Assembly: GCA_964023275.1 (NCBI GenBank)
Contig: OZ029922.1
Span: 3,161,034-3,225,033 of the forward strand
Length of the DNA: 64,000 nucleotides
Source: Norana najaformis
Taxonomy: Eukaryota > Annelida > Clitellata > Crassiclitellata > Hormogastridae
Direction of reading: 5' to 3'
Shown here: in pieces, positions 33,832 through 64,000 of the stretch
Position numbering within the stretch: the first letter of the stretch is position 1
Layout: every line of letters begins with the position of its first letter
The notes under the pieces: generated by a model
The model's input: only the letters and a program-made list of their open reading frames with translations
What the model was told of the DNA's origin: nothing
The model's database searches: none
Position numbers and translations under genes: made by a program

Positions 33832-33839
33832 GTTGTAAA

Positions 33840-34745: not shown

Positions 34746-34749
34746 ACAT

Positions 34750-38346: not shown

Positions 38347-39363
38347 ATACAGTGTGCAAGAGTTTATGATTATTTTTCAGGTTTAAAGGAAGAAATGCTT
38401 CTGAAAGCCGACCAGCAGCGTGTGACAGCCTTGTTAACTGAAACCGTCACTCTGCTGTGCAAGAACGGCCTACACTTCAAGTCCCAGTTCAAAATTGAGG
38501 GTTTGATTGGTATAACACTTGACCAGGAAGACATTTTCTTGGTTAACATCAATGAAACTGTTGCTGTAGAGGGACCCGTTCAAGAGAACGAAAATGCGAA
38601 CAGTCCGCCTCCGATCGACGGGAGGCCCACCGCGTCGAAAAAGCGCCGGCAGAGACACACACCAATTGAAAGTATGCAAGGCGTGACCTCGGATTCCTCG
38701 TTGCCTTGTACCAAACCTGCGTCTGTGACGACCCCTAAAGAATCATTTGTTTCTGCACATCTTGACAATAGTTCAACATCTGACCGCCGTTCCTGCTCAC
38801 CTGTGCAGCCTGGCTCGGTTAAAAGCCAGTCAGAAGATGTGGGGTTGGCTAGGCCCGGTTCGCCTCGAACATCCTTGCCGGGTAAAGCTTCGGAGACGAA
38901 TGTTTCTGATCGTATCATGTCGTTCTGTGATGTTCCCATAAAATTAGACTATGCGCTCGGCTCACAAGACTCGACCGGCAATACTTCAGACAGTCGTCGT
39001 GTCAGCGAACCAACATCCAAACGACCTCGCCGCCATATGCCCAGCCAGGCATCAGATGCCTCGCTAGTGCAGGAGCAGAACAGTGTAGAACCGGCTAGCT
39101 TCGACATGCCATCTGGCTCGAGTGCATGCAAAATGGAGCCTTCAGATATCATTGAAATTAAGGAAGAGTCGCTTTCAGATGATGAAATGAAAGAATCCAT
39201 AGCCGGTTACTCGTCCTACGCTGAATACAGCGCTGCAGCAGCTGCAACGTACAGCAACAGTGACTTAGACGCAAGCCAGATGTATGGAGAAACATCTGGC
39301 TTTCAGGCAGATACGATGTTCCAGGGTGATATGCAGCCGAACGTGGCTTCACGATCACATGAG
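38347..39363 (+). CDS. shared 5' exon of alternative-terminal-exon zinc-finger locus
   Basis: Acceptor TTTTTTTTACATTACAG; the exon opens in phase 0 (IQCARVYDYFSGLKEEML), the first in-frame ATG is at 38,395, and it ends CAT GAG before GTGAGC, again phase 0. From the ATG (323 residues): residues 1-58 are a compact predicted alpha/beta region (RVTALLTETVTLLCKNGLHF, IEGLIGITLDQEDIFLVNIN) that I do not recognise; it is not a BTB domain by eye. Then come basic NLS-like KKRRQRH (82-88), a Ser/Pro-rich linker, a second basic patch KRPRRH (209-214), a SUMO-type IKEE in an acidic stretch (255-265), and an Ala/Tyr-rich end. Without splicing it runs only eight codons to a stop. Role inferred: nuclear regulator whose DNA-binding tail is chosen from the downstream exons. 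Confidence 0.8.
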
Positions 39364-39965
39364 GTGAGCTTCCTTTCAAATTCTTAATTCATTTATCAAA
39401 TTGTTCAGTGTTCCTGCATTCCTAGAAGTTACACTTGCACATACTCACTCAGAATTGTTTCAAAAAGCTTCTCTTTGTTTGAGATTCAAACTATTACAAC
39501 TTTCAACATTGTCATTTTAGTCTTAAGTATAACCCAGCTTATAATTCCTTTTTGGAGCAAATACTTCAAAATTTTCAAATGTTTCCAAAGCATACTAACT
39601 TCCACTGATTGGTTGATTTGTACTAAGTTTATTCAGAATTGTTCAGATTGATATGTGCACATAAAAAATTCACAGAATGATGAAAAAAGTTAGTTGAACA
39701 AATTTACTTTAGCTGAACAAATTTACTTTCATAATTATCGTACTTGAAACTAGGAATTTGCTATTTGGAAATCATTCATGGCATTTAGCGCAAGGCAAAA
39801 ACACATTTTGTGTGAGTTGTAACTTCAAGGAATGTATTTAGGGCTGGTTGTACTCTTGGGAATCAAACTAAATGCCCAGGAAGATATGGGTTAATGGTTC
39901 TAGACATGTAGTTACTCTGCCATTAGTTGAGGGGAGGCTTTGCTCATTGCGAGGCTGCAGTGGAT

Positions 39966-41048
39966 CAGTACGTGACGTTTTGGTGCCGCTGTTTTGGCTC
40001 CGGCCGTTTTGGTACGACGATAGGGCTGACTTACGTGCTAACATAAGGTAATGAAACCAGTACAGTACGTTAGTGCGCAAGGCATTACTCCACAAGTGAC
40101 ACTAATCCGAGTGACGCTAATCTGCATAGCAAATTCATTATAAAGCACTGCTCGGCGTTGCTTATATATTCTGTTGAGAAAGTTCATTCCAACTTACTGC
40201 TTTGCTCTGCTCGCAAAGATTTTAAAATAACATTCGTGCAAGACGCAGCAAGAGCATATTAAATTATATGAAAAGTTACATATATAAAGTATGATAAATA
40301 TATCACGTATCATTCTGTGACACCTTTAAAATGGAAACTGTGCAGTCGAAGCGTGGCAAGGAAAAGCTTATGCACGAAGGATACCTCTACGTGTTTGATA
40401 AGTTCAGTGCAGACCATTCCAAGAAGTTCTGGCGATGTGAGCTGAAGAATGCATGCAAGGCCCGTCTACACACGACTGCAGATACTGATCGAGTTCTGGT
40501 GCAGATAAACCAGCACAGTCACGGAAGTGATGCGGCGAGTTAAGTGCAGAAAATACATCAATGCAGATCTCAGAATCAGGACAACTGTTGAGAGTTACAA
40601 CGAACGAAACATCATTGAGCACCTTAGAGGACTATCGCATAATTTTTTGATGGACTTGTGAACTGATGGACTGTACAGTTTACCAAAACGTAACACATTG
40701 AACAATATTCATTTAACATTCCTTGACAACTTTGATATACTACATTTATTTTAAAATGTATTAATGCTCTGATATGCTACGTTTATTTCAAAATGTATTA
40801 AAACTTTGATATACTGCGTTTATTTCTAAATGCATTAAAACAAAGTAACAAAGATAGCGCGTTTACGGCATCGAACAATACAACTTTGCATTAAAAAAAC
40901 AAACATTTATTGTCAACTGTTATGTACTATGTTTACTATGCTGACTGAGAAATGCATTTATCTTTATAAGCGCCAAAACAGACACATCCAACACGGTGGC
41001 GCCAAAACTTCCCACGCCAAAATGGCAGCGCCAAAACGTCATGCTTCA
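39966..41048 (+). mobile_element. MULE-like DNA transposon with FLYWCH ORF, in the first large intron
   Basis: Imperfect terminal inverted repeats begin TGACGTTTTGG(C/T)GC on both ends (left about 39,972; right complement about 41,040), each with further internal TTTTGGCGCC-type repeats. A 9-bp target-site duplication GCAGTGGAT lies at 39,957-39,965 and 41,049-41,057. FLYWCH fingers and 8-11 bp duplications are typical of Mutator-like elements. No DDE transposase is visible in 1.08 kb, so this is a deleted, non-autonomous copy. Confidence 0.7.
40331..40543 (+). pseudogene. FLYWCH zinc-finger ORF of the MULE-like element
   Basis: The 70-codon ORF reads METVQSKRGKEKLMHEGYLY, then FWRC, CKARLHT and NQHSHGSDA. 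This is the C2H2 FLYWCH finger with its Gly-Tyr, Trp-Arg-Cys and His-x-His landmarks. The frame breaks directly after the finger; the +1 frame continues with AARV-like residues and INADLRIRTTVESYNERNII, the helical region expected next. So it is a decayed fragment of a larger protein. A GTGCAG before codon 6 happens to give a phase-0 acceptor-like site. Confidence 0.7.
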
Positions 41049-41059
41049 GCAGTGGATTG

Positions 41060-42060
41060 AGATTACTCTGCATTTATTTAAGGTTTTGCTCATTGCGAGT
41101 CTGCAATAGATTGTGATGCAGCAAATTTATTTGCTTAAGTCAGGAGTTGTTTTAGTACAACCATATGCCAAATACATTTCCATGGAAAACCTAGGAAATA
41201 CAATAGTTCTGGGTCTGAGTTCTTTGGAATTAACAGAGACTTGATATGAAAGTACACAAACCTTTTCACGATGCTGCCAGATAAAGTTTAATAGAGCTTG
41301 GCTTTTGGAACCTGCATCATAATGAGGTATTTTTACAGCAAGTTTGCAATTTGTGGCAGAATTAAATTTGAGATATATGTTCCCATCTGCACTTCATCAG
41401 AATACCTGTTTTAATGAAGCGTGTAATACAGAGACCCCAGAGAAATAAACTTCAGTTAGGCTTCCAAATCTGACAAGATAAAATTCAGCATCTGCGCTAA
41501 AAAGTAGTACTGATTAGCAATCAGACTGTGGCTTAATTGAAGTAAGGCCCTAGCTTAAGGAAAGTGTGGGTTAATTTTTTCTGGATTTCTTATCAGCTGC
41601 TGTGGTTTTGATTAGTACTAGTGCAACCAGCCCTTAGTTTAGCAGAGAGTTAGCTTCTCTCGGTGTAGTTGAAGTATCGCTTTCATTGAATAATACTAAA
41701 GCTACAGTTCAACAGGATGTAGGAAATTGTGAGCTGTAAGGTTCTAAATAGAAAAATAAATGTGGGTTTAATGTTTCAGCTGAACTGTAGAACTGCATTT
41801 GACGGTGTGTGCAAAACCCTAATAGCTCTAGGTTCATAAACACATTGTATACCGGCAGTCACGTCGAATGTCAACGGGAAGTTATATTTTCGTGTCAAGA
41901 CTTGTTTGTGATAACTCCCCAAAGAGTCAGAATGTCTTTGAGATTTGATTGACCAGAGTCGATTGATGTTCTGTGCATTATTACAGGGTGCAGTAGGTAT
42001 TTTAGAGTTGATTGATTAGGTGATAGGAGAATTAGGTAGATTCTTATAATTATTGTAAAA
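41060..42060. other. intron, no feature recognised
   Basis: AT-rich intron. The first 50 bp (ACTCTGC..., TTTGCTCATTGCGAG) duplicate the sequence left of the MULE-like element (39,911-39,965). Confidence 0.4.
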
Positions 42061-42068
42061 GCAGTCAT

Positions 42069-42380
42069 GATGACGGAGTTTTAGTCCAAGATGATAGGCA
42101 TCTTTGGGCAGCAAGTTCTTACAAATGTTGTCAAACCAATGGAGATGAAATGGAGCTACGGCCTGAGCTGACAGGAAGCTGTGGTCCAACAAGTTCCTTC
42201 AAATGTTACACAACGAACCGTGATGAGCTGCTACGATCCGAGATGATGGAAAGCTTTGGTTGTGCAAGTTCTTTTAAACGTTACGAGGCCACTCGAATTG
42301 ATGCAGAACTTTGGCCCGACATGACGAAGAGATGTGGTCCAGGCAAGTTCTTTTGAATTTTGTGAAACCAGTCACAGTGA
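42069..42380. repeat. 75-78 bp tandem repeat, four copies, open in frame
   Basis: Copies start near 42,069, 42,144, 42,222 and 42,300 and share GAAGCTNTGGT and 'GCAAGTTCTTTNAAANGTTA'. The 78-bp period is a multiple of three, so a 26-residue repeat is readable (SSFKCYTT / SSFKRYEA). Lacking clear splice sites, it is kept as a minisatellite within the intron. Confidence 0.7.
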
Positions 42381-42994
42381 ATTTCTACTGTTAAATCTGG
42401 GCTTCTAGCTGAATTTATTCTTAGCTTAAAGTCAACAAATTGTGGCTTTTGTGACGTCAGCAGATGATGGCTAATGAGTTGTTGGCAATGAGGGCACTTT
42501 TCTGATGTTGGGACCTGTGTACCTTTGAAGTTTATGAAGCTGGATGTACCTGTACTGTTTGTATAGCATCCTTATGCCTTCCTCTGCATCCAAATAGGAA
42601 AAGAACAGTTTAGGATTTACAGTACTCCACAGTGGTGGAAGGCATTGCTATATGGAGTTCTGATTGCTGTGCTAGTCTGGTTCTAGTGCTGAGGAAGAGT
42701 TTCACATGCACATGTATGCAGTTTGTATAATAAAAGTTGGCTTTTGATGTTTAGACACTGGGTGATGAACTGATGTGATGGACTAGCCATCTGGGTGGGA
42801 AATGTTCTTGAGTTTTTCCTAATAAAGCAAGACGCAAAACATACATTTAGTGAATCCATGTAAAAACTATTTTTTTTGCGTGGCTTTATTTTGCCAAACA
42901 GGTATTTCATGAGTCAGATTTATGGCTATTGACAGTCTGTGTTGAATTTCTTGTATGTTGTTATTTTTTGTTTTGCCATGAGCTATAGAGAGTT

Positions 42995-43175
42995 CTGTAG
43001 TGCAGTGATTAGCATGCTGGACTGTCATTCCATAAGTTGAGGTTCAGATCCTCACAAGAACAGAACAATATCTAAAGATTTTTGTTCCACTGATGTCCTC
43101 TAGTGATTTCGGGTATAAGTACGTTGACTGTGCTCTACAGGTAGGAGAATAAGGTGATGAAAGAGATCATTGGCC
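42995..43175 (+). mobile_element. tRNA-derived SINE
   Basis: Box A-like 'TAGTGCAGTGATTAGCATGC' and box B 'GAGGTTCAGATCCTC', then a body with 'CGGGTATAAGTACGTTGACT' and a purine-rich end; same family as 11,884. Confidence 0.7.
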
Positions 43176-45082
43176 AGGTGTACTTCTATTTATCTATCCT
43201 TTGTGAAATTTAAGAACTTCCATATTATTTTTATTAGATTGTTTATGCATGTTGCTATATCTGTATATGAATAATTATATCTCATTTTGAAAACTCACAA
43301 GTGACAATATATTTGGGGTCTTTTTGGTAATAAGTATGCTGTAGAGGTTATTTGATGTTGGTTTAGGCTTTTTATTAAAGCAACAAATGTTGGCTGATAG
43401 GTGGATTTTGACAAAGATTCTTATGCATAGTGTTAATTTGGACCAGCTCATCTGCTAAGCAGTTCAGCTACATAATCTCACAACACTTTCCTTTTGGCAC
43501 ATCAGAAGAGGCTACCGGCATGGTTTTGTGAAAGGCAGGCTACAGTTCTTGTTTGTTAGCTTTCCATTGGCTGTTGAACTCAGTGCAGTTCTGTGATGTA
43601 CACTGAATAAACTTTGACCTTGTCTGGTAGCCTGAACAACAGGGGCAAAAAACCATTGTACCTTTTAATATAACATGTGCTTCTGTGATCATCGTCTTGT
43701 AACAAATGCGTCTTCTCTGCTGTCCGACTGTCATATTATCTGACTGTTATATTATCTGACGTTGACTTGGGTTGAGTTAATGTCAGCACTTTGTATGATA
43801 TATTTACAGACAAGGAGGATTTTTTCAGTTAAGAGTAAATTTGCAGACTCTGTAGCCACGTATCATCGTCTGTAGTTTGGCACAAAAACCTGTTCACACT
43901 GATACTTGGCAGTTTGCAGTGGAATCGTTTATACAGCAGATGGTTATCTTAGAATAAGCTGTGGTGCCTTCTTGTTCTACAGTGGGCCTGCTTTGCCACT
44001 TATCTGGTTCATGTTTTGACTGTGTGAATGTGCAAAATTAGAATATGGTTCCATTGGAGAGGGGTAGTTCTACAGGTTTATGAAAGTGGAGAATACATAT
44101 GTAGAGGATGGTGGTTTTATCACTTAATGAAGTTGGGGATTATTTATGTATTGGAGAAATTACAATTGGTGAGCAGTGTCTGATATTGATGTGTAATGAA
44201 TTTGCATGCTGCTGGTCCCTATTTTCTGAGAGTTGTATGATTCACTGTAATTTTTCTGATTGAGCAATGTCAGTTGCTACTCAGAACCATCTAGTCCATT
44301 TCACACTATTAAGGATAGATTCTGAATGTCCCTGGACGTTAGGCATTGCATTTTAAAAAGTTGTAAAAGCAGCCTTTGAATTGGATTGACTGTTCTGCTG
44401 AAGTTGCAAAATATAACGAGTTGCTGATCACATTGTCAGAATAATTTGTAATTCCTCCTTTATGCAGAGTAGTTTAGAGACTTTTACTTTGGTAAACAAA
44501 CTTTCTCTTGAGGTTAGGATTTGAAATCCAGTTCTTTTGCAAGAGTATTTCTTGGTCTTAGTCACTCTACCAACTTTTGGACAAATCAGATATGTTGAAG
44601 CAAGTTTGTACATTGCACCGATCCGATAGAAGAACATCATCGAAGATTGATTTCTTTTAAGGATGGCTTGTTTTTTGTAATACAGTTCAGTTACCTGAGC
44701 TTGCAGCACTTTCTCCGCAGGTTATCGCAAAAAGCGACCTGAGTGAGTTCGTAGAAGGGAAGCCGCAGTTGTCCAGCGAAGAGAAGAGATCTTGGCATTA
44801 GGAAGCAGTTTAACAATCCAGCTGACCTAAATGAAAGCAAAAAGTGATTACAGGGATATGATATTTGTGCTTTGACATTCTAGACCTGTTCAGTTTTCTG
44901 AGGCTGTCTTTTTGTGAATGAGCTTGCTTTATTTGGGATAAGATATAAAGTCAGAGGATAGGCAGAGGTTAATTAGCAAGGTCTTGCCAGGGCACAGAGA
45001 GCAGCTGTAGATGATTTGATGGGTTTTCTCTTCATCATCACCATGTGTGCCGCTAAATCCTTCTTAATGCGTTCTGTTACAG
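43176..45082. other. intron before the first zinc-finger exon
   Basis: No exon recognised. A diverged minus-strand tRNA-like block lies near 44,515-44,580. The last 60 bp carry the TGCCGCTAAATCCTTCTTAA acceptor-proximal motif shared with other finger exons. Confidence 0.5.
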
Positions 45083-45385
45083 GCACAAGCAAATACGTGG
45101 TGTGTGGAGGGCGGCAGTGCTTTTAGAGTAAATCAGTGCAGTCAGTGTGGAAAACACTTTTCAACAAGTGCCAACCTGAAGGCCCATATTAATTTGGTGC
45201 ACTGCAAAAATTATCGACACTCTTGTCCAATCTGTGGGAAGAAAGTTCAGAAACGGAGTCATCTGAATGGACATATGGCAAATAGCCACAACATGCCTAA
45301 GCGATTCAAGTGTGACATATGTCTGAAAGAATTTGGATACAGGCATCACCTCACAAGACACACAAGTCACGTGCATTGCCGATGA
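45083..45385 (+). CDS. alternative terminal zinc-finger exon 1 (3 C2H2)
   Basis: Acceptor TTCTTAATGCGTTCTGTTAC-AG, phase 0, 100 residues then TGA. It begins AQANTWCVEGGSAFRVNQ. Three C2H2 fingers follow: CSQCGKHFS...H-x4-H, CPICGKKVQ...H-x4-H and CDICLKEFG...H-x4-H. The linker before the last finger is HNMPKRF, the signature shared by the array. It would join in frame to the shared exon at 39,363 and supply the DNA-binding tail. No canonical AATAAA was found before the next exon; a TATAAA variant is near 45,688. Confidence 0.88.
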   Translation, partial: AQANTWCVEGGSAFRVNQCSQCGKHFSTSANLKAHINLVHCKNYRHSCPICGKKVQKRSHLNGHMANSHNMPKRFKCDICLKEFGYRHHLTRHTSHVHCR

Positions 45386-46084: not shown

Positions 46085-46396
46085 GCACCAACAGCAGATG
46101 CTGTGGCGATGCTGGACTGTTATGGTGGTACTCGTAGAATTTCACGGAAGAATTACTCGAGAGGCTTCGAACGAGAGTTCTGTGGGATCCGTCAGAGGCG
46201 TCCGTACATTTGCCCAAGCTGTGGCAAGAATTTGCAGAGAATAGGAGACCTTCAGGCACACATGGCTGTATGGCATAACTTAGCTGACAAGCATAAGTGT
46301 CGCTACTGTTCGAAGGAGTATGGGCACAAAAAACACCTGAAACGACACATGATTCTCAAGCATCAGCTCAGTCCAGATATGTCCGTATATATATAA
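46085..46396 (+). CDS. alternative terminal zinc-finger exon 2 (2 C2H2)
   Basis: Acceptor CTTCTTAATGAATTTTATTA-CAG, phase 0, 103 residues ending at TAA. It begins APTADAVAMLDCYGG, then a basic linker, then two fingers: CPSCGKNLQ...H-x3-H and CRYCSKEYG...H-x4-H, linked by HNLADKH. The first finger of the usual three is degenerate. It is the closest paralogue of exon 3 (shared DLQAHMAVWHNLA and GHKKHLKRH). AATAAA lies at 46,481, about 85 bp after the stop, supporting a true 3'-terminal exon. Confidence 0.87.
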   Translation, partial: APTADAVAMLDCYGGTRRISRKNYSRGFEREFCGIRQRRPYICPSCGKNLQRIGDLQAHMAVWHNLADKHKCRYCSKEYGHKKHLKRHMILKHQLSPDMSVYI

Positions 46397-47535: not shown

Positions 47536-47811
47536 GCGACCACTGCAGATGGTGCACATAGACTTTCTTGGAACGTATACTCGGGAGGCTCCCTTGTCGA
47601 TCCCCGTGCGATCCGTTCGGCGGGTCGGTACATTTGTCCAATATGTGCCAAGATGCTGTACAAATCCAGTGACCTACAGGCGCACATGGCTGTCTGGCAT
47701 AACTTAGCTGAGAAGCAACAATGTCCATTCTGTTCCAAGCAATACGGGCACAAAAAACATCTGAAGCGACATATACTTCAGAAGCATCATCAAGTCGCAT
47801 GTCAGAATTGA
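47536..47811 (+). CDS. alternative terminal zinc-finger exon 3 (2 C2H2), no ATG
   Basis: Acceptor CTTCTTAATGGATTTTATTA-CAG, phase 0, reading ATTADGAHRLSWNVYSGG, then two fingers (CPICAKMLY...H-x3-H; CPFCSKQYG...H-x4-H) and TGA: 91 residues. There is no initiator Met before the fingers, so an ATG-based ORF search misses it; other frames give only spurious short ORFs. It is a recent duplicate of exon 2, including about 60 bp of upstream intron. AATAAA is at 48,058. The lack of a start codon strongly favours use only as a spliced tail. Confidence 0.86.
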   Translation, partial: ATTADGAHRLSWNVYSGGSLVDPRAIRSAGRYICPICAKMLYKSSDLQAHMAVWHNLAEKQQCPFCSKQYGHKKHLKRHILQKHHQVACQN

Positions 47812-48510: not shown

Positions 48511-48846
48511 ACTCTTCTGTGCCCTGCTACACCGCTGAATTCCAGCAGGCAACGGAAAACCACCTCGGCGCCATATGTCGAGTGCTTAGAGTGTGGAAAA
48601 CGGTTCACTGGTGATTACATGGTGTACACGCTGCGCAGACACGAGGCCACGCTACATCGCGGGGAATTTCCGCACAAATGCCCCGTCTGTGGCAAGGGCA
48701 TGCAGGGTATTGAGGACCTTCGTAGTCACATGGTCTCCAAGCATAAGATGCCGTCAGACTATAGATGTGAGATATGTAATGAAGATTTTGGCAAGAAGAG
48801 AACCCTCCAGCTCCATATGATGACCAAACATCCTATCCCTTCATAG
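48511..48846 (+). CDS. alternative terminal zinc-finger exon 4 (3 C2H2)
   Basis: Acceptor CTTCTGTCTTACAG, phase 0, beginning TLLCPATPLNSSRQRK; 111 residues to TAG. Fingers: CLECGKRFT with a longer Cys-His loop (DYMVYTLRRHEATLH), CPVCGKGMQ...H-x3-H and CEICNEDFG...H-x4-H, with KHKMPSDY before the last. AATAAA is at 49,024, about 180 bp after the stop. The open frame upstream of the acceptor is chance. Confidence 0.87.
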   Translation, partial: TLLCPATPLNSSRQRKTTSAPYVECLECGKRFTGDYMVYTLRRHEATLHRGEFPHKCPVCGKGMQGIEDLRSHMVSKHKMPSDYRCEICNEDFGKKRTLQLHMMTKHPIPS

Positions 48847-49954: not shown

Positions 49955-50278
49955 AAGCAAGTGGACTTGATGTCAGTGTATCCTCAAGGTGGTGGCAATG
50001 TGGCTGGTAATGCTCTGCGTTGCTTCGATTGTGGCAAAACCTTTTCGACTGCGAGCGTTGTGAAGGCGCACATTAAAAAAGTCCACCGGAAGGAGTTCCC
50101 GTACATCTGCCCGATCTGCGGCAAAGGTGTGGCAGGAATCACGGACCTTGATGGTCACATGGCCAGCAGACATAACTTGCCGAAACTGTACCAGTGTTCA
50201 TTCTGCATGAAGGAGTATGCCTATAAAAACAAGTTGAAGATTCACTTGCGTCAGAAACATGGGAGTGAGCTTACATAG
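49955..50278 (+). CDS. alternative terminal zinc-finger exon 5 (3 C2H2)
   Basis: Acceptor CTTGATGGATTTTATTGCAG, phase 0, beginning KQVDLMSVYPQGGGN; 107 residues to TAG. Fingers CFDCGKTFS...H-x4-H, CPICGKGVA...H-x3-H and CSFCMKEYA...H-x4-H, linked by RHNLPKLY. The acceptor region belongs to the group shared with exons 1-3 (GATGGATTTTATT). First AATAAA is at 50,808, so the 3' UTR would be about 530 bp. Confidence 0.87.
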   Translation, partial: KQVDLMSVYPQGGGNVAGNALRCFDCGKTFSTASVVKAHIKKVHRKEFPYICPICGKGVAGITDLDGHMASRHNLPKLYQCSFCMKEYAYKNKLKIHLRQKHGSELT

Positions 50279-52406: not shown

Positions 52407-52766
52407 AGCCCTTTTCCATCTGCAACTGGAAAATGCAGGAGGCCGGCAGCAGCAGCTGCAGCAACACGCACCTATGTTCTACCAGTTGTTGATGGCAGTG
52501 GAGGATTTGTGGTGGGTCCAAAGGATGCGACGTCCTCGGCCGTCTTTCCCTACATGTGCTCCATCTGTGGCAAGGGTGTCTATAGCAAGGACAACCTGCG
52601 CTGCCACCTAGTCAGTCGTCATAACTTGCCCAAAACCTTCCAGTGTGGTGCCTGCCCTAGGAAGTTTGGATACAAAAGGGCTTTGAATAGACACATAGCA
52701 GCAGAACATCCGGACTATGACCGATGTAAACAAAGAGTGGCTGAATTCAATCAATTGAGGCCGTGA
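52407..52766 (+). CDS. alternative terminal zinc-finger exon 6 (2 C2H2)
   Basis: Acceptor GATCTCTGTCTTGTAG, phase 0, beginning SPFPSATGKCRRP, then a poly-Ala run, then YVLPVVDGSGGFVVGPK and two fingers: CSICGKGVY...H-x3-H and CGACPRKFG...H-x4-H, linked by RHNLPKTF; 119 residues to TGA. An ATG-based call starts too late (52,509) and loses the first 34 residues. Later AG sites nearby do not keep phase 0 with an open frame or lack a pyrimidine tract, which fixes this boundary. ATTAAA is at 53,059. Confidence 0.83.
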   Translation, partial: SPFPSATGKCRRPAAAAAATRTYVLPVVDGSGGFVVGPKDATSSAVFPYMCSICGKGVYSKDNLRCHLVSRHNLPKTFQCGACPRKFGYKRALNRHIAAEHPDYDRCKQRVAEFNQLRP

Positions 52767-53949: not shown

Positions 53950-54249
53950 ATCTCGAGGTCAAGAGTGTGCTTGTCTCAAAAATTGCACCAGTGCCCCGAC
54001 TGTAGGAAGGCGTTTCGCTGGGCTTCTGGTCTGACGCGCCATCGCAACATGGTTCATCGGAATCGTTATCCTTTCACCTGTTCCATCTGTGGCCATGGTG
54101 TTGAGCTACTACGCCAGCTGCAAAGTCATTTGGCCGCTAAGCATAACATAACCGAGGCGGTGTTTAAGTGTCACGTCTGCCTGTCTGAATTCCACGATAG
54201 GAGTCTGTACAGAAGTCACATGCTTGTCCATGAGACGTGTAGTGTTTAG
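53950..54249 (+). CDS. alternative terminal zinc-finger exon 7 (3 C2H2)
   Basis: Acceptor GCGCTTGTCTTGCAG, phase 0, beginning ISRSRVCLSQKLHQ; 99 residues to TAG. Fingers: CPDCRKAFRWASGL...H-x4-H, CSICGHGVELL...H-x3-H and CHVCLSEFH...H-x3-H. With exons 8 and 9 it forms a subfamily (C-G-H-G-V-E-L, CHVC, short charged tail). ATTAAA is at 54,427 and AATAAA at 55,000. The linker KHNITEAVFK is one residue longer than in its sisters. Confidence 0.87.
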   Translation: MSRSRVCLSQKLHQCPDCRKAFRWASGLTRHRNMVHRNRYPFTCSICGHGVELLRQLQSHLAAKHNITEAVFKCHVCLSEFHDRSLYRSHMLVHETCSV

Positions 54250-56859
54250 CATGTACAACGTTTTTTAATGCTTTTTGGATATATACCCAAAATGGAAATT
54301 GATTTATCAAGTAAGAATTTAGCAATCTTACTTGCTTTTCTAATATGCTAGGGCTTTTGTATCTTCTGACCTTTGGGAGCCATAGTTGGTAATGAAGTCG
54401 TGTTGTGTAGAGGTGTCGTGAAGCTAATTAAACTTATGGTCCACAGTCATTTTATTTTTTATTATTTGATTCGGCTGTTTGATGAACACCAAGTAACAAT
54501 ATAAGATGACAGGAATTGCCATATAATTGAATTTGGCATCAGTGTACGGACCCAAAGGGAACCAACCTTTACACTGTTAGGGCGCTGAGTTTTCACGAGC
54601 AATTTAATAACAGATGGCGACTTGTTACATATAAAAATTGCATTTAAACTAAGGTACATGCTGTGCGTGCTGGCTCACAGATGAGCAAAATGCAAAGAAG
54701 GTCATGCATGTGTATTGATCCTGGGCGTATTGTTTCAGTCAAATCTTATATTAGTGAGGAGTAAGCTAGCATTAGGATTGTATTTCTTCTAAGAACGTTG
54801 TAGTATTGTTACTTTTTGTTATGCAGTTCACATGTTTATAGTTTAAAGTTTAAACTAGTATAAGATTCATTCTTACAGCACTTCCTATTGATTTAGTTTG
54901 GACTGTACTAAGCAAAAACTATTGGCAAACATATGAGAAGAAATGAAGGAAAGTACTAAAGGTAGAAGTATTTATATTACAGTAGATGAGAGGATGATGA
55001 ATAAATAGCTGTCTTATGTATTTTTATTGAAAGTAAAGATATAAAAAACCAGGACTTGGTTGTGAAATTAAACAGCATGAGTGAACAGTTAGTCTCGAGA
55101 GTGACAAGAAGTTGCTTTCCCTTTTGGAGATAACGTGTGAGGTATTAAACTGGATTACAGAACTAATAGATACTTGTGACATGAAACCTGCTACTGATGA
55201 GAACTGTTATGACAGTTACTAATCTAAAATGCTGTACTGGGAGTATTATACATGCTGAATATGAAAATAATGGGTGTGTAGTTGTGTTTGCTCAAAGTGA
55301 TTTAAGAGCTACAAACACCGTTTTTGTTACTTGTGGTAGGGAGATGGTTGTAGATGGAAAGAGATTTCACTGTAGTGGTATTACCAGTAGTCAGAATTGG
55401 TTGAGAAAGTGACATTAACTGTTAATTTCTGAAGCATTTATATGCAAATGTCCCACTATTCATATGCAAGCCCAAGCACATTTTTTGTATTCAGGGTCAA
55501 ATATAGAATGTTATTGTGCTATATTTTTATCTTGGAATTTGAAACTTTGGAATATTTAGTGTCTTGCACAGTACAAAAGTTAGTAAATACTAATACTTGT
55601 ACTGATATGTCAGTTCAAAGTTGAAAGTGTTTTGTCATTTGCTTCTTACAGACCCCTTGATTGGTGGATTGTCCTCATTGGCAAGGAACACAGCAGTATT
55701 AATTTCATTTAATAAGCAGTTAAGTTAGCCTATGACTTGCATGCAAATTTGTAAATACAGTGTTTTCAAATATGTGGAAGAGATGTATCTTAATTCTTTT
55801 TAATGTGGTTTTATTTGGGAGATTAACATATCAGTAGCGTTGAGCTGAAATGACAAGTTATGTTGGAACACAATGGCCAAGTTTTATTAATATTTTTAAA
55901 GATATCAGTTGAATATACAGTGTTTATTACACTACACAGCAGGGTAGTATAAAAAGTAGGATGTGTGTGTCTGTCTGTTTGTTGGATCGTTGTTTGAAGC
56001 TCAAATTCCTTTTCTTCCTTCAGGAAATGCCTCAAAACTCACTAGTGCCCACTGTTTTTAAAAATTTAGATAACTGACCTGGTGACTGATGAGATCACCT
56101 GATAATTGCCTGGGAACACCTCAGATTCACATTTTTCTGTTTGACTTTGTGTGTGTTACAAATTTATTTAATATTAATAAAATAATATCTAAGTACACAA
56201 GGCTTGCAATGATAACTGCCAGCACTTAGTTGCATCCATGTCTGATGATTGATGCTAGTTTAATGGCTAGGTTGCTGGACTTTCAACCTTGAGGTTAGGG
56301 TTCAAATTCCTGCCAGCACAAACAGTTTTAAGAATTTTTGTCCACTAAAGGCAATTCAACTGTAAAATGAGTTGACTGCTTACTGTGGAGCAGAGTTGAA
56401 AACCAGATGCCAAAGGATTCCCTTCCATGCTTAACCTATTAAAATATTAAAGTCACTGACACTTATGCGCAACATGGTGGTTGGTCAGTGATCATGCGGT
56501 TGCAGTTTCGACTCCGTGTAACATGTTCCTCTGTCACCAAGCAGTATAATCTGGGAAGTGAAAGGCAAGACCCGCAATGCAATGGCACTGTGTTCAGGAC
56601 CTTGAGATTCATCCATTGCCGGCTCAAGGGCCAAAGAGTAGGAAATGAGCGCCTCTCCTACGTTCCTGATGGGACATGGGGGCTTTGCTTTACTTTTGAC
56701 ACTTTTACCATGGTCGCCCCATAGGATCAACATAAGGGACTTGTCTTGGTGGGTGATATGTAACATCACTATGGGTATAAGTGGCGGGTAGAAACGTGTT
56801 GTAGCTATACCTGAACTGTCGGCTGGTGGCTAAGAGGTCGGTCTGGCGTTGTCTTGCAG
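54250..56859. other. inter-exon region with one SINE
   Basis: 2.6 kb without a recognised finger exon; AT-rich. Contains the tRNA-SINE at 56,262-56,455 (separate entry) and a possible second tRNA-like fragment near 56,490-56,525 (GCGGTTGCAGTTTCGACTCC). Confidence 0.5.
56262..56455 (+). mobile_element. tRNA-derived SINE
   Basis: Box A-like 'TTTAATGGCTAGGTTGCTGG', box B 'AGGGTTCAAATTCCTG', body 'CAACTGTAAAATGAGTTGAC', and A-rich end with TTAAAATATTAAAG; same family as 11,884 and 62,972. Confidence 0.75.
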
Positions 56860-57156
56860 ATCTCAAGAGCGAAATGCCAAACATCTAAAAACTTACACCA
56901 GTGTCCCGACTGTAAGAAGGTTTTTCACTGGTCGTCCGGCCTCTCACGCCATCAGAACATGATTCATCGGCGTCGCTTTCCGTTCACTTGTTCGCTGTGC
57001 GGCCATGGCGTTGAACTGCTGCACGAGCTGCGCAGCCACATGGCTTCAAAGCATAACATGCCGAAAGATTATAAGTGTCACGTCTGTCAGCGCGAATTTA
57101 GCCACAGAAGAGTTTTCAAGCAACACTTGGTTGTTCATCATGGACTGACGCTATAA
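56860..57156 (+). CDS. alternative terminal zinc-finger exon 8 (3 C2H2)
   Basis: Acceptor GGCGTTGTCTTGCAG, phase 0, beginning ISRAKCQTSKNLHQ; 98 residues to TAA. Fingers CPDCKKVFHWSSGL...H-x4-H, CSLCGHGVELL...H-x3-H and CHVCQREFS...H-x3-H, with KHNMPKDY. Even the first residues (ISR) and acceptor match exon 7, indicating tandem duplication of the whole exon with its 3' splice site. No canonical poly(A) signal was found close to the stop. Confidence 0.87.
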   Translation: MSRAKCQTSKNLHQCPDCKKVFHWSSGLSRHQNMIHRRRFPFTCSLCGHGVELLHELRSHMASKHNMPKDYKCHVCQREFSHRRVFKQHLVVHHGLTL

Positions 57157-58315
57157 GGAGTCTTTGACTGGTTTTCGATTAGAAGTGTTTCTTCTGTTTT
57201 GGTGTTTCCAGATTTTTGACTTTTCTTTTGTAAATACGTTAAATATGATCTGTCCTTTGGTGTTATTTTTATGATTAATTTATTATTTCTCTACCCAAGG
57301 GATCAAATCCAAAGGGAAAGAAAAGATTTCTGATTATTGTGTTGTTTTTGTGGGCAGTTGTTGTGCGTCTAGATGCTGGAGACCCCAGAGACCGTTAGAT
57401 GGATACAAAGGCAGAAAAAGATATGATTTAATACTCGACAGGCATAGGAGACTAATTTAGTTTAGTTGGTATGTATGTATATATCTGAATGCTTATAAAG
57501 CACCTTTTAGGAACATTACCTGAAACACGGCCACCTAACAGATGTAAAAAGGTGCAACTTAAGCTGAGAATGTTTCTTAGGCTATTTTAACCGGTATTCG
57601 TTTTTGTTTATTATATATTGGCACTGATTTGTTGAAGCAGAAATTATAATTTGTCTGTGCAAATGAGGTAAAATCCTAATTTGCATTTTATTAATTATTG
57701 TTATTATTTGCACCAAGATAGTTACGTGTTACATTTGCACCAAGAAAGTTGAAGTTGCCACATCTAGCATTGAGACCAAAGCATATAAAATAAGCAGCGT
57801 CTTCTTCTGGAAAGTATGATTTTTCTGGATGACATCTTGTCTTTGTCTGGGTTCATTCACAGTTGCTGGTCCCTTGATCTGGAACTCTGTCCTCATCATT
57901 CTCACACTCTAATCATTCTTAACAGTTTTGAGGCTGTTGATGACAAAAGTCGACATTAGGGGTAATATTCATCCTACAGCCCTGATTAAAAAAAAATTAT
58001 TTAGCCTCGAAAGTATTACTCCATAGCAGTCACACTCTCACGGAGACTGTTTTGCTCTGAACTGAAAACTTGCCTCTTCCAGTTTAGTTATGGTTCTTAA
58101 CGTTTTCTGTTGCCTGGCTCTTATGTAAACTTCAGACGTGTAAGGAGGGCATTATAAAATTACATTGTATTGTATTGTAAACAGTTCGTTAAGATTTTTG
58201 TGTTGTTTTGTGGAGGGATATTGTTATCTGGTCGTTTTAAGCATAGAGCACAAGGTAGAACTTGCAGCGTCTGGTTGAGTTGTGCACCGATGAACAAAGT
58301 GCCGTTGTCTTGCAG
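57157..58315. other. inter-exon region with LINE 3' remnant
   Basis: A retroposon tail at 57,465-57,520 (TATATCTGAATGCTTATAAA), and a LINE ORF2 end at about 57,865-58,170 on the plus strand (readable FCSELKTCLFQFSYG), with a TTGTA-repeat tail. Confidence 0.55.
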
Positions 58316-58624
58316 AGCCGGCGCAGCTGGAGAGCAGGGTCGCACACAGCTGCGCACAAATTGTTCAAGTGTCCCGAGTGTGACAAGACTTTTCGGTGGA
58401 GTTCAGGCCTTTGGAAGCACCACAACATGATCCACAGACGACGGTTTCCCTACACGTGTGCGCTCTGCGGCCACGGCGTCGAACTGTCGCACCAGCTGCG
58501 TAGCCACATGGCTTCCAAGCACAATATGCCGAAAGATTTCAAATGCCACGTCTGCCAGCGCGAGTTCTGCCATAAGATCGTCTTCAAGGACCACATGCTC
58601 GTACACCACTCGATGAGCGTTTAA
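58316..58624 (+). CDS. alternative terminal zinc-finger exon 9 (3 C2H2)
   Basis: Acceptor GCCGTTGTCTTGCAG, phase 0, beginning SRRSWRAGSHTAAHK; 102 residues to TAA. Fingers CPECDKTFRWSSGL...H-x4-H, CALCGHGVELS...H-x3-H and CHVCQREFC...H-x3-H, with KHNMPKDF. Nearly identical to exon 8 in fingers 2 and 3, but higher in GC at third positions. AATAAA is at 58,727, 100 bp after the stop, so a compact terminal exon. Confidence 0.88.
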   Translation, partial: SRRSWRAGSHTAAHKLFKCPECDKTFRWSSGLWKHHNMIHRRRFPYTCALCGHGVELSHQLRSHMASKHNMPKDFKCHVCQREFCHKIVFKDHMLVHHSMSV

Positions 58625-58784
58625 GCGCTGGATGCAAAGCTCCTATGAAATCGGACGCTTGGTTTAGACGAATAATGTATTAACTTGAGTTGTGTTTGGC
58701 TTTTGTTCGCATCTTGTCACTGATGAAATAAACTGTCACTGAGAGTGTTTACATAGCATTTGGGTGTGTGAATAGGGTATTTGG

Positions 58785-59110
58785 GAGTGGAAGAGTGATG
58801 ATAAAGCTGAGAGTTAATGGTATTGGGTATGCGAGGGAGTGAAAAAGGATGAGACAGTAATCATGAGAGCATTTGTGTGTGAGAGGAAGGCAGAGAAGAA
58901 GTAAGAGTTTGGTTATGAAATGGAAATGAGACAGGAATAGAGTCACAGATAGTGATGGAGAGAGGCAGACAGACATCGAGAATGAAGTAAGAGTGTGTGT
59001 ATGTGAGAGACAAGGAGAGAAAGAGTGAGAGTCAGAGAGGAAAATAGAGTGAGAGAGACATACAGAGACATTGAGGCAGAGAGAGAGGCACTGTGAATGA
59101 GAGAGTCGAT
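58785..59110. repeat. polypurine GA-rich tract
   Basis: About 320 bp strongly enriched in GAGA on the plus strand, ending about 90 bp before the exon 10 acceptor. The long minus-strand Ser/Leu/His ORF across it is a product of the repeat. Confidence 0.85.
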
Positions 59111-59200
59111 AAGTCTGTTTAGGTGTGAAGGAACCAGTGAGTGGGTGCGTTGCTGTGATTGGGTCGAGTCTGAGACATGATCTCTTGTGCTGTGTTACAG

Positions 59201-59593
59201 AATCCACCAGCGCAGTTGTTGGGTGCCAGAGAGGACGAGTGCAAGGAATGTGGACTGCGCTTCGCAAACCCCGTCGCCCTCCAGGCGCACGTGATGCTTG
59301 ATCTCCACAAACAGCCGGGTTTCGTTTGCACCACGTGTGGCAAGGTCTTTGACCGTCAGAGAGGGCTGCGAGGTCACATGTCAAGCAAGCACGACGCCCC
59401 CAAAGACTTTGCTTGCCGGTTCTGCACAAAGGGCTTCAGCTATAAGAGGGGCCTGAAGAAGCACTTGTCTACGGCGCATAAGCGAAACTACGAATTCATG
59501 TGCTCAGTCTGCGGTTTTGGTGTGAACAGCGTGCAACAGTTTCGGGACCACATGGCAGAGCAACATGATGTTCGACGCAAGCCTTTGGTCTAG
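59201..59593 (+). CDS. alternative terminal zinc-finger exon 10 (4 C2H2)
   Basis: Acceptor GTGCTGTGTTACAG, phase 0, beginning NPPAQLLGAREDE; 130 residues to TAG. It has four fingers rather than three: CKECGLRFA...H-x4-H, CTTCGKVFD...H-x3-H, CRFCTKGFS...H-x4-H and CSVCGFGVN...H-x3-H, with KHDAPKDF before the third. The extra fourth finger repeats the middle-finger type (CGFGV), suggesting internal duplication. It is the most GC-rich exon. ATTAAA is at 59,696. Confidence 0.87.
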   Translation, partial: NPPAQLLGAREDECKECGLRFANPVALQAHVMLDLHKQPGFVCTTCGKVFDRQRGLRGHMSSKHDAPKDFACRFCTKGFSYKRGLKKHLSTAHKRNYEFMCSVCGFGVNSVQQFRDHMAEQHDVRRKPLV

Positions 59594-59611
59594 TTTAGAT
59601 GGCAGACCTTG

Positions 59612-59802
59612 TCAGACTTAAAATAAGTATGCCAGTATAGTTCGCTGGACCACATGCCATCGTGATATGTTGTTCCTCACGCGCCTTTGGATTAGATTAA
59701 ATGACTGGTCAAAATATTATGGACTAAAAGTAAGTATGCCAGTATAGTTTACATGAAGGACCATATGCCATTGTGACACAGTGTTCCTCACAAGCCTTGT
59801 AC
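59612..59802. repeat. imperfect direct repeat of about 80 bp after exon 10
   Basis: Copies at 59,614-59,690 and 59,720-59,801 share 'TAAGTATGCCAGTATAGTT', 'ACCA(C/T)ATGCCAT' and 'TGTTCCTCAC'. They lie in the presumed 3' UTR or flank. Confidence 0.8.
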
Positions 59803-59829
59803 CAGGAAAGTGCTGGCTCTTGGGCAGTC

Positions 59830-60095
59830 TCATTAGCTGGTGCAAAGCTTTGAAATTCCCTGCCTAGTTTGTTCTGTCAATTCTTTGATGCCATACTGAT
59901 CCATTCTACTAAACACTCGTCTCTTTCAACTTGCTAACCCACCGTAGCCTGGCTTCTGTTTTCTCTGACCCATTGGAATATGACCCGGCTTCTCTAATGG
60001 GTTATGATTTTTGATTGTGATATCACTTAAAGCGACCGTAAACGTATGCCTTGGCATTATGATAATGGCACTATAGAAGTGTTTAGATTAGAAAT
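59830..60095 (+). mobile_element. LINE 3' end fragment
   Basis: Readable NTRLFQLANPP (RT ORF end), then 'AAAGCGACCGTAAACGTATG', 'GCATTATGATAATGGCACTA' and a TTAGATTAG end, the plus-orientation counterpart of the TATAGCGCC tails. Confidence 0.7.
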
Positions 60096-60334
60096 CTATG
60101 GTTATCTCTTGGCAGAAGGTGAGACCTAGTGAAAAAGTGGGAGGTTTACTACCATTTAGCCTACCAACGTTAAGAACATGATTAGATAGCATGAATATGA
60201 CATAATTTGGAGCTCAGTTACACTTTGGAATTCATGTGCAGCTTCATGATGTACATGATTTGCATACTTGAGATCTTGACATCATTTTCTAATACCATTT
60301 GCATATTCATTTTGAATTCTCACGGCATAGTGTT

Positions 60335-60562
60335 TGCCTACAGCCACTTTGATGATGATGAGTTTTCTGCCCGAAGGCAAGTCCATTGGCTTTATGCCAC
60401 CCGGGGATGAGATGAGTGAGGTGGTTTCCTGTTGCCTTCCTCACAGACAACTATGGGTGAGCAACTTGTCCAAGGTCGCTACGCGGTGGCGTGAGGTAGA
60501 TTCGAACCCGCGACCCTCCGGTTACGAGGCATCGAACATACCATTACACCACCACGTCCCAC
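60335..60562 (-). mobile_element. tRNA-derived SINE (second family)
   Basis: On the minus strand the head reads GGGACGTGGTGGTGTAATGG, with box B 'GCGGGTTCGAATCTACC', a body with 'CGGGTGGCATAAAGCCAATG' and an (ATC)n end. The T-stem pairing is broken, so it is not a functional tRNA-Thr gene despite a CGT anticodon-like triplet. Confidence 0.7.
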
Positions 60563-60564
60563 TT

Positions 60565-62308
60565 TATGTGTAGCTTATGTTGCGCTTTGTGCAAATTACA
60601 CTGTAGTTTCTTATGGGGATGTTTCTTTTAGGATGTTTATGCTGAGTGGGATGACATGTGAGCAGTTACGGTGCTGCAGCTCATCATAATGATCTTGTTT
60701 CTTTTTTCTGTATGAGCAAAGTAACACAGAACTTGGTTTATACTGGAGGCAACAACTTGATGCTATTGTTTGATGGTGGTTTGTCTTGTTGAATAGGAAA
60801 TACTAATGGGAGTTTACATAAAAGTAATTTTTTGATAAAATAATTTCTTATTGTGTGCAAAAACAAGTCTTTTTGTGGAGGGATATTATGTCTGGTCTGA
60901 GTAAACTCTTGATGCAAGAATTTAAATGCAAGTTAACATGTACCTTAGATCATTGTGTATGTGATAACAATGTGCAGTCGTAAAAATATCTGGTGTGGAC
61001 TTTTAGCATGCGATACTCAAATGCATTTTTCCGCTGTTTACATTACCTTATTTTGGGAACCTACCCTTTCTATAAGTTTGATTACACTTCTGTATTTTTT
61101 CAGCTATTTGCAGGTTTTACCATTGTTAGTGCTGCTGCTCACCATGTACTATGTTGACTTCTTTGCTTGATTTCCAAGGCGGACGTTGGTTTCAGTCAGA
61201 TTTTACATTGTTCAAGTTTTCCTTGTGAGCTGCAAGCTATTTTTCACTTGCCAGTCCATCAGTTTAGCTGGCTAGCTATTTCATTTTCGTTGCATTTTAT
61301 GGCTGTTTTTTTTCAAGTTGAAATTGTCTAGCCCTGACAGTACATTTTTGTTCCTTGGATGGTGCGTATGGCGCAGTTCGTGTTCTGTTGTGTTGCAAAT
61401 ATTCAATTATTTGGATTTTGTGATAATAAATGTTAGAACTGGGATGCTGGATTTAATCTTAAATGCACACTGTAAATGCCAAATAATAATAATAAGATTA
61501 GATCACAGTGCGAAGCCTGTTATTAGATAACCATATCACATGCTTCAGTTGGATTTAAAACTATTATAGGGATTTCAGATATTGTTCTTATCATTTTGGT
61601 ATTCTGAGCAGTGTATTATTTTTCATCAACCATTTTCAGATGCTGCTGACGGCTGATTTTGCTACTATTAAAAGTTGTTGTGAAATCTTTTATAAGTCCA
61701 GAGGGATCGCAGGTACCTCAGGGAAAAATTTTAAAAAAGATACTACCTTGGGCAAAAAATAATATTATGAATTCATTTATCATCTGAAAGACTTGGCTCA
61801 TTTGTTCAAAAATGAATTTAATCATTGATTTAAGAAAATGAGTCTAAGCAGCTTGTGAATTGCTTAAATAAAATTGGACAATTTACTGAGCATTAGGATA
61901 TGCAGATTTTTCCAGACTGTTTATGAAAATGAAGTCACTAATACTAACACCAATGACTAGCTCTAGGAGCCGGTGTTCCTCTTGCTGGCTTTTAAGTTAT
62001 AGTATTGTTTGAAACTTATGTCATTTGCAAGAAAGGAGTCATTATCTTTGCAGAATTGGTTTCGTAGCAGCTGATGACAGAGGCAGCTGAGCATAATGAG
62101 CAACAGTCTTTTGGAATTGAGGTGTACTTGGTGGAGATCAGTCCTAGTAACTAAAACAATAGACTGAAGTGATGGAGGAAAGAACTGAAAGACAGGATGA
62201 AATTAGTAGTTGAAGAGAAAGATTCAGACAGATAGTTGAAGCATAGTATGAAGTAGTTTCAGAAACAACCAAAATAGCTAAGACTGTTTTTCTGGCGATC
62301 TCTTACAG
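60565..62308. other. inter-exon region, nothing recognised
   Basis: AT-rich, no finger exon, no clear retroposon. Confidence 0.45.
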
Positions 62309-62626
62309 AGTGTGTCTTACAATGAGCGAAGAGGAGGAGGAGGCAACAGAGGCCAGTCAGCATTCCTATGGCATCGAGCACATCAGCGTGGGTTATTCTG
62401 TCGCCTTTGTGGCAAGGTCCTCAGAGACGAGCCAGCTCTTCGCGGACACTTGTCAGCAAAACATGCGTTTCCGCGAGAATACAAATGCACGCTGTGCCAG
62501 AAGGAGTTCTGCTACAAGAGTGTCTATCAGAGACACCTAAGGCTTAACCACCACCAGACAAATGTTTTGACTTGTGCAGACAACCAATTCCCGCTGAGCG
62601 ATAGCTGCTTTGAACAATCACAGTGA
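62309..62626 (+). CDS. alternative terminal zinc-finger exon 11 (2 C2H2)
   Basis: Acceptor GGCGATCTCTTACAG, phase 0, beginning SVSYNERRGGGGNRG; 105 residues to TGA. Two fingers: CRLCGKVLR...H-x3-H and CTLCQKEFC...H-x4-H, with KHAFPREY between. A 30-residue tail (TCADNQFPLSDSCFEQSQ) follows the fingers, unlike most other exons. The N-terminal finger is lost. ATTAAA is at 62,892. Another frame over the same bases is open but gives no fingers. Confidence 0.86.
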   Translation, partial: SVSYNERRGGGGNRGQSAFLWHRAHQRGLFCRLCGKVLRDEPALRGHLSAKHAFPREYKCTLCQKEFCYKSVYQRHLRLNHHQTNVLTCADNQFPLSDSCFEQSQ

Positions 62627-62971
62627 AAGGAACTCACAAATGATACAGAAATCTTGCATAAATTGATCAAGAAATCACATGCAGAGTGATGAAGAATTCT
62701 GCACAAAATGGTGTTAAATTATGCAGAAGTCTTACATTAAGTGATACCAAATCAGACAAAACTTGATAAAGAATTGACGTGCAAATGTGATAATGAAATT
62801 CATTAGTGACGTGATAAATTGCTGTGTGAAATGATAGAGAATCTGTTTGCAAAGTTACAGGGCTGGTTATACAATATGATATACTTTGCCAATTAAATAG
62901 TTTTGTTGGAATACTTGTGTAGTATGTTTGTATACCATACCTGACAAGGTACCGGTAGATACATGGAGGGT

Positions 62972-63140
62972 TTAAGGGTGCATGATAGTCTATTGGTTAG
63001 CATGCAGGATTGGCAACCCAAGGTTGGGGTTCAAATCCGGCCAGGGTGGAAATTTGTTTAAAGATTTCAGCTCCGCTTTCACCCTCTAACGAACTCAGGT
63101 ATAATGTGTACATTAACTAACACAGATTGTAAAACTGATC
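62972..63140 (+). mobile_element. tRNA-derived SINE
   Basis: Box A 'GATAGTCTATTGGTTAGCAT', box B 'GGGGTTCAAATCCGG', body 'GAACTCAGGTATAATGTGTA'; same family as 11,884. Confidence 0.75.
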
Positions 63141-63534
63141 AGCAATTTAGCCAATGGCAATAGAGCTAAATGAACTAATGTATGTTGACATGAAGAACTG
63201 TTTTCATTTGTTAGATGGGTTTTACATGTGTGAGAGAGCCAGCCAGTGGTATCTTTCCAGCCATTTGAGTGGTGTCTTCGAAAGGTTCTTAGAAGATGCT
63301 CTAGAAATATTTACGTTTATTCAGATGTGAAATGGGATTCGGATGGGATTCGGCTGTTTTTCTCACAGTGCATTCTGGAACATACTGTCGTGCACCCTGA
63401 GATGTCATCTTCTCCTCTCTCTCTGCCTCTGCTTTGCCAGTGGTTGAAGGCCATTCTTTCTCGGGTGGTTGCCAGGTTTGGAGCGCCTCTGATGAGCTTT
63501 CTGGAGGAGGTGTTTACAAATGTGCACTCACAAG

Positions 63535-63880
63535 TACACAAATCTCTTACAGGGTTTTGGGTATCAAGTGAACTTGGATACATTAATACATACATTATTT
63601 AGATGTAAAAACTCAGATGCAGCTGTTTCTTTCCCACAATTTGTTACAGGGTTTTGGGAATCAAGTGAACTTAAGGTTCGTCAGTTCTTACAGTTATTGG
63701 GGTGTAACAGCTGGGATCTGACTGTTGCATTCTCACACTGTCTTGCAGAGTTTTGCATATTAGATATGCAAAGTTTTGCATATCTAGTGAACTAGGTACA
63801 TAAACACGTACATTTTTTCGGATGTAACATCTGGGATCTGACTGTGTCTTTCTCGCAATGTCTTACAGAGTTTTGGGTAT
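63535..63880 (+). repeat. tandemly duplicated 3' splice-site cassettes
   Basis: Four successive copies of a pyrimidine tract + AG + (A/G)GTTTTGG-like exon start, with AG at 63,552, 63,649, 63,748 and 63,868 (spacings 97, 99, 120). Copies 1, 2 and 4 also share 'ATCAAGTGAACTT'-type sequence. Only the last leads into the readable finger exon 12. Confidence 0.75.
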
Positions 63881-64000
63881 CGAGTGAACGTTGGAGGATT
63901 TAGAGACGAAGGAGGCAGAGAAGGTGGAAGTGGTGAGATGATGCAGTCCATGGAAGCAACCAGCTTACAGCGTCACTTGCCTAGCGTCTGCACGATCTGT
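63869..64000 (+). CDS. alternative terminal zinc-finger exon 12, cut by window end
   Basis: Acceptor TCGCAATGTCTTACAG, phase 0, beginning SFGYRVNVGGFRDEGGREGG, then SGEMMQSMEATSLQRHLPSV and CTIC, where the window stops. The closing Cys-x2-Cys is where the middle-type finger starts in other exons, so fingers very probably follow. The pre-finger part is Gly-rich as in exon 11. The stop and poly(A) site are outside the window, and further exons may follow. Confidence 0.72.

Follow-up and report, generated by a model that had tools for sequence, protein, structure and literature searches.

Description of the locus

The window analysed here is the whole 64,000-nucleotide (nt) stretch of Norana najaformis contig OZ029922.1 (positions 3,161,034 to 3,225,033, forward strand); coordinates below count from its first letter. 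The plus strand carries a predicted transcription-factor gene, in which one long shared N-terminal exon is followed by an array of terminal exons, or cassettes, coding for C2H2 zinc fingers. The array begins 5.7 kb downstream of the shared exon and holds 12 exons over 19 kb. The last is cut by the end of the window, so that twelve is a lower bound. A gene of this layout had been proposed in an earlier note on this DNA (the original prediction). The features of the gene are as follows.

38,347–39,363, plus strand: shared N-terminal exon, 339 codons open, phase-0 donor GAG/GTGAGC.
38,383–38,619, plus strand: putative N-terminal domain (modelled stretch), predicted helix and beta-hairpin at low confidence, predicted local distance difference test (pLDDT) 66.
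45,083–45,385, plus strand: terminal finger exon E1, 3 C2H2 fingers, by pattern, Pfam and acceptor.
46,085–46,396, plus strand: terminal finger exon E2, 2 fingers, by pattern, Pfam and acceptor.
47,536–47,811, plus strand: terminal finger exon E3, 2 fingers, nearest kin E2, by pattern, acceptor and tree.
48,511–48,846, plus strand: terminal finger exon E4, 3 fingers, the first with non-standard spacing, by pattern, Pfam and acceptor.
49,955–50,278, plus strand: terminal finger exon E5, 3 fingers, by pattern, Pfam and acceptor.
52,407–52,766, plus strand: terminal finger exon E6, 2 fingers, by pattern, Pfam and acceptor.
53,950–54,249, plus strand: terminal finger exon E7, 3 fingers, by pattern, Pfam and acceptor.
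56,860–57,156, plus strand: terminal finger exon E8, 3 fingers, by pattern, Pfam and acceptor.
58,316–58,624, plus strand: terminal finger exon E9, 3 fingers, nearest kin E8, weakest of the twelve acceptors.
59,201–59,593, plus strand: terminal finger exon E10, 4 fingers, by pattern, Pfam and acceptor.
62,309–62,626, plus strand: terminal finger exon E11, 2 fingers, by pattern, Pfam and acceptor.
63,869–64,000, plus strand: terminal finger exon E12, incomplete because the window ends where its first finger begins (CTIC).

Terminal finger exons

Exons E1 to E11 are complete and contain, in order, 3, 2, 2, 3, 3, 2, 3, 3, 3, 4 and 2 fingers. Each has its own stop codon. Pattern scan and reading frames agree in this with the original prediction, which gave eleven complete exons with two to four fingers and a stop. 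All nine complete exons scanned with Pfam match C2H2 families; E3 and E9 match by pattern. A two-finger core is common to the 11 complete cassettes, joined in most by a linker like HNMPK or HNLPK. The strict C2H2 pattern misses the first finger of E4, which has odd spacing, and would miss other spacings too. Applied to all six frames of the window, it gives one isolated stop-free match outside the array, at 25,400 (plus strand). No match lies on the minus strand, where fingers of other spacing would escape; the locus may extend past 64,000. Introns between cassettes were scanned by the C2H2 pattern only, and the Pfam scan covered two of the three plus frames of the intron 39,364–45,082.

The acceptor and exon start of E12 are repeated every 97–120 nt within 63,541–63,891 (plus strand). 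Exon starts of this type lie at 63,553, 63,650, 63,749 and 63,869, and three of the four read [GS]FG[YN][QR]VN. The first of these copies, at 63,553, is open for 80 codons and contains no finger.

Splice sites, phase and 3' ends

The donor of the shared exon, GAG/GTGAGC at 39,363, is in phase 0 and scores 11.1 bits with a generic matrix. Among the 1,794 GT sites on the plus strand of 38.3–64 kb, 2 score as high, this donor included. Both it and the predicted exon coordinates are borne out. For the acceptors, all AGs from the preceding in-frame stop up to the first finger cysteine were considered and the best-scoring one was taken. In every one of the twelve exons this is the acceptor originally predicted, and its phase is 0 (12 of 12, binomial P 1.9e-6). 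Eleven of the twelve acceptors are in the top 0.1–3.9% of AG sites; that of E9, at 58,316, is only in the top 8.7%. The phase predicted for all twelve holds, and their description as strong acceptors was slightly overstated.

No good donor follows the fingers in the 11 complete exons, as had been predicted: the best one between last finger and stop scores 5.7 bits, against a median of 5.9 in random 310-nt stretches. One GT inside finger 2 of E5 (exon at 49,955) reaches 8.8 bits, slightly over the 90th percentile (8.1). A stop follows soon after the fingers in each complete cassette, and serial joining of cassettes would therefore need an internal donor. A polyfinger protein made by splicing the finger exons in series was rejected, given the in-frame stops and the lack of a good donor behind the fingers of the complete cassettes. 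Seven of the 11 complete exons lack an in-frame ATG in the stretch from the previous stop to the first finger.

In 9 of the 12 exons the motif CT[AG]A starts 29–32 nt upstream of the exon start, near the expected location of the branch point, against 12.9% at 1,548 other AGs. GCTAAR is found in 5 of 12, against 0.5% at these AGs. The two counts are not independent, since the exons are related. AATAAA or ATTAAA precedes the next acceptor in 10 of 11 cases, against 9.3 of 11 at random positions (P 0.45), and none lies between E1 (45,083) and the acceptor that follows it. Within 300 nt the signal is present in 8 of 11, against 4.2 expected (P 0.023). The predicted poly(A) signals thus exist, and before the next acceptor they are no more frequent than by chance, which makes them weaker evidence than had been implied.

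Shared N-terminal exon

The shared exon is free of stops in its own frame for 339 codons; the other two plus frames contain 16 and 25. The first in-frame ATG is at 38,395, and 38,381 is a possible alternative exon start. By codon usage trained on the finger exons the open frame scores 0.070, above 110 of 110 windows of 16–38 kb (maximum 0.041) and below four of the five other frames of the exon itself, and this does not settle the frame. A compact domain is suggested by the 62 residues from the ATG at 38,395. The linker behind them is 33% serine, proline and threonine, and contains the basic clusters KKRRQR and KRPRR and the SUMO-type motifs IKLD and IKEE.

The exon matches no Pfam family at E≤1, the 62 residues match none at E≤10, and a sequence comparison of the exon with PDB gives no match. 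AlphaFold2, run on the single sequence of 38,383–38,619, returns the helix and beta-hairpin listed above. A fold search with this low-confidence model gives 61 matches at E≤10, with none at E≤0.001 among the best 50 of the 61. Relatives of the domain were sought in viral and prokaryote contigs, with animal genomes outside the search; these yielded 17 and 120 pattern matches respectively, none of them confirmed.

The N-terminus had been described as not recognisably a BTB domain, and this holds. Pfam finds no BTB in the shared exon, and no family at E≤0.01 in the three plus frames of 15,200–38,346, where the scan began at 15,200; a BTB split over small exons could escape. The same method did recover a FLYWCH domain in the intron.

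Kinship and constraint

In protein comparison most pairs of finger exons are clearly similar, and neighbours tend to be nearest kin. In the tree, E2 and E3 are joined with support 98/97, the sole branch starred as well supported. E7, E8 and E9 are grouped at 93/96. E10 and E11 are joined at 83/85, where E11 is a long branch of unsure placement. DNA homology crosses the acceptor into the intron in 3 of the 8 unit pairs that show it, namely E1/E2 (to −31), E2/E3 (to −73) and E7/E8 (to −27), and is exonic only in the other 5, E8/E9 included. This set leaves out rows from overlapping excerpts (100% identity), one E1–E3 row and the E8–E10 row, which fell on a neighbouring unit, and an E6–E8 repeat match.

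The ratio of nonsynonymous to synonymous substitution rates (dN/dS) is readable in 4 of the 7 pairs tested, of 55 possible, three of the four values being rough: 0.10 for E8/E9, 0.19 for E7/E8, 0.42 for E5/E6 and 0.51 for E2/E3. To judge from these comparisons, the cassettes are old tandem duplicates with synonymous sites diverged or saturated and fingers intact. Most of them are probably in use, because unused copies of such age would be expected to lose their fingers.

DNA-contact residues

The predicted contact quartets (helix positions −1, 2, 3 and 6) are all different in finger A, 11 in 11 exons, and nearly all different in finger B, 10 in 11 exons. Contact positions are less conserved than other non-ligand positions in finger A (P 0.011) and are not so in finger B (P 0.30), both values having been computed from rounded identities. 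Such variation agrees with diversified DNA targets. It is also expected of many paralogous C2H2 families.

Proposed gene and mode of expression

The locus is probably a transcription-factor gene in which the one shared N-terminal exon is spliced in cis to any of at least 12 alternative 3'-terminal exons, for a yield of 12 or more isoforms. One shared exon with interchangeable terminal finger exons, as originally predicted, is the simplest reading of matched phase, stops, few ATGs and missing donors. In each messenger RNA (mRNA) a single phase-0 acceptor would be spliced to the phase-0 donor at 39,363, and the transcript would end at a poly(A) site behind the chosen cassette. Each protein would consist of the common N-terminal domain, the linker and one set of 2–4 C2H2 fingers. 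The common part may serve partner binding and nuclear entry, and the finger set may determine the choice of DNA target. Cassette choice would probably occur in cis, splicing and cleavage behind a cassette competing with transcription into later cassettes. The array expanded through local duplication in tandem, and for some of the cassettes at least the duplicated unit was acceptor plus terminal exon.

Anatomy, phases, paralogy and constraint are read directly from the sequence; splicing, the cis mechanism and DNA binding are inferred. Several points weigh against the proposed gene. An in-frame ATG lies ahead of the first finger in 4 of the 11 complete exons; start codons of their own, named in the original prediction as a sign of independent genes, are lacking in most of the exons and not in all. 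Enrichment of poly(A) signals is only mild, and the stricter form of the branch consensus, CT[AG]A[CT], shows none (1 of 12). Synonymous sites are saturated in 3 of the 7 tested pairs, and in 3 of the 4 readable pairs the synonymous divergence (dS) is 1.6–2.2, which is what makes dN/dS rough. By the codon usage of the finger exons, 4 of the 5 other frames of the shared exon score higher (0.14–0.20) than the open one. A frame of 354 codons is not beyond chance at that composition: over 200 simulated 64-kb strands the longest frame had 362 codons, and the longest per strand averaged 192.

The cassettes lie on the same strand as the shared exon, and cis-splicing is sufficient to join them to it. 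Assembly of the same layout at least partly by trans-splicing, with cassettes that have their own promoters and whose transcripts are then attached to that of the shared exon, is unlikely. The long introns do leave space for promoters; the upstream homology, however, spans only 27–73 nt in three unit pairs and gives no sign that a promoter was copied along. Drosophila mod(mdg4) cassettes are described as transcribed from independent promoters (PMC12692577), and the mod(mdg4) homologue in Daphnia, beetles and Hymenoptera as cis-spliced (PMC4667647). Trans-splicing is therefore not obligatory in such genes.

Distinctly unlikely is a cluster of separate zinc-finger genes with small first exons of their own, next to an unrelated gene to which the exon at 38,347 belongs. 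Phase 0 throughout fits one strong donor. Tandem C2H2 gene clusters are common in animals, and the four complete exons with an in-frame ATG would suit such a cluster, but the other seven have none. About a dozen unrecognised first exons would also be required (a systematic search for first exons between cassettes was not made).

A gene with one or two real isoforms and mostly unused relics is very unlikely: the decaying copies of the E12 start at 63,553, 63,650 and 63,749 indicate that the array does yield dead copies, and E2, E3, E6 and E11 have two fingers against three in 6 of the 7 other complete exons, but all 11 complete cassettes retain core fingers, stop and acceptor despite strongly diverged or saturated synonymous sites (7 pairs).

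Other elements of the window

The large intron between shared exon and array contains a further domain, in the only FLYWCH frame found.

40,298–40,543, plus strand: FLYWCH frame, Pfam 1.1e-18, starting from an ATG of its own and lying in a likely transposon.

The frame is flanked by inverted arms at 39,973–40,012 and 41,002–41,041, and this element is nested in an outer inverted pair, 39,840–39,867 and 41,607–41,634. Lying between inverted repeats, having its own ATG and being transposon-like, it was excluded from the gene. The tails of mod(mdg4) carry the FLYWCH domain, and it is a curious coincidence that a mobile element with this domain sits in the large intron of a similar locus. Perhaps it shows how such tails arrive.

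A 106-amino-acid repeat frame at 42,036 was likewise rejected as part of the gene; it has no Pfam match at E≤0.001 and is minisatellite-like. Four copies of a 38-nt unit, 75–79 nt apart, lie in 42,111–42,380 (plus strand), most of them within this frame (42,036–42,356), and are probably a minisatellite. A transfer RNA (tRNA)-like match is present at 42,992–43,062 (Rfam RF00005, 46.2 bits), with similar heads at 56,253–56,290 and 62,983–63,020. ARAGORN found no tRNA. The three stretches are likely tRNA-derived short interspersed nuclear elements.

Upstream of the shared exon, 34,673–35,926 (minus strand) is a reverse transcriptase frame of 418 amino acids, similar to those of long interspersed nuclear elements (Pfam RVT_1, 2e-20). 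Neighbouring genes are an Eph-type receptor tyrosine kinase with a SAM domain at 8,913–14,990 (plus strand) and a MIF/D-dopachrome-tautomerase-like gene at 32,916–33,876 (minus strand); the Eph-type gene is in keeping with an animal host.

Comparison with known systems

In both lola and mod(mdg4) a common part with a BTB domain is combined with one of many alternative 3' exons, and trans-splicing takes part in this (PMC11426971, PMC12692577, PMC4667647). In lola the common N-terminus has a TTK-type BTB and the alternative C-terminal exons code for C2H2 fingers, 17 of 20 isoforms having different zinc fingers; TTK-type BTB domains are reported as absent outside Arthropoda, molluscs included (PMC11426971). 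Drosophila mod(mdg4) makes some 30 isoforms by adding alternative 3' exons to a 5' part that all have in common, and its variable exons are tandemly duplicated within lineages of flies and moths (PMC4667647, PMC12692577). Its tails are mostly FLYWCH, and some variable exons lie on the opposite strand (PMC12692577, PMC4667647).

The present locus resembles lola in its many alternative 3' C2H2 exons in phase with a common donor (12 of 12 here, known from exon sequence alone) and in C-terminal fingers that differ between exons. It differs in the TTK-type BTB of lola, none having been found in the scanned sequence. With mod(mdg4) it shares a common 5' part and tandemly duplicated alternative 3' exons; there, BTB is combined with FLYWCH tails and two strands, whereas here the tails are C2H2 and on one strand. 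No FLYWCH was found in the 9 of 12 cassettes scanned with Pfam (E3, E9 and E12 lie outside the scan, and for 5 of the 9 the result refers to the best 25 families). The locus would work like lola and mod(mdg4) but cannot be classed with them: neither a BTB nor a FLYWCH tail nor a finger exon on the other strand was found in the scanned sequence.

Broad, tramtrack and fruitless are BTB-zinc-finger genes with a shared N-terminal part and few alternative finger exons. They are alike in combining a shared N-terminal part with alternative finger exons and unlike in being BTB proteins with fewer alternatives. Loci that exchange many DNA-binding ends on a constant front are known mainly from insect BTB genes. 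Among the titles and abstract openings found in the open-access literature none describes a non-BTB locus of such layout, which is a weak negative. Clustered protocadherins, and chelicerate Dscam with its tandem 5' cassettes (PMC4835542), also join a constant part to one of many tandem cassettes. In these the variable part is 5' and the products are cell-surface proteins, a mirror-image layout.

The predicted exon array behind the shared exon is real, well preserved and without a recognisable BTB, and the variant is new in that respect. More tentatively, and with slightly less confidence than doubt, the locus may have evolved independently as a second generator of interchangeable zinc-finger isoforms, possibly outside arthropods, with an undescribed N-terminal domain of one helix plus a beta-hairpin in place of a BTB. 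Duplicated cassettes would diversify the DNA-contact residues, and the fixed N-terminus would keep the partners the same. If this is true, such a locus lacking BTB would demonstrate that evolution reuses the layout and not the BTB. It would also test which features (same phase, terminal exons, one or two strands, cis- or trans-splicing) follow by need and which by history.

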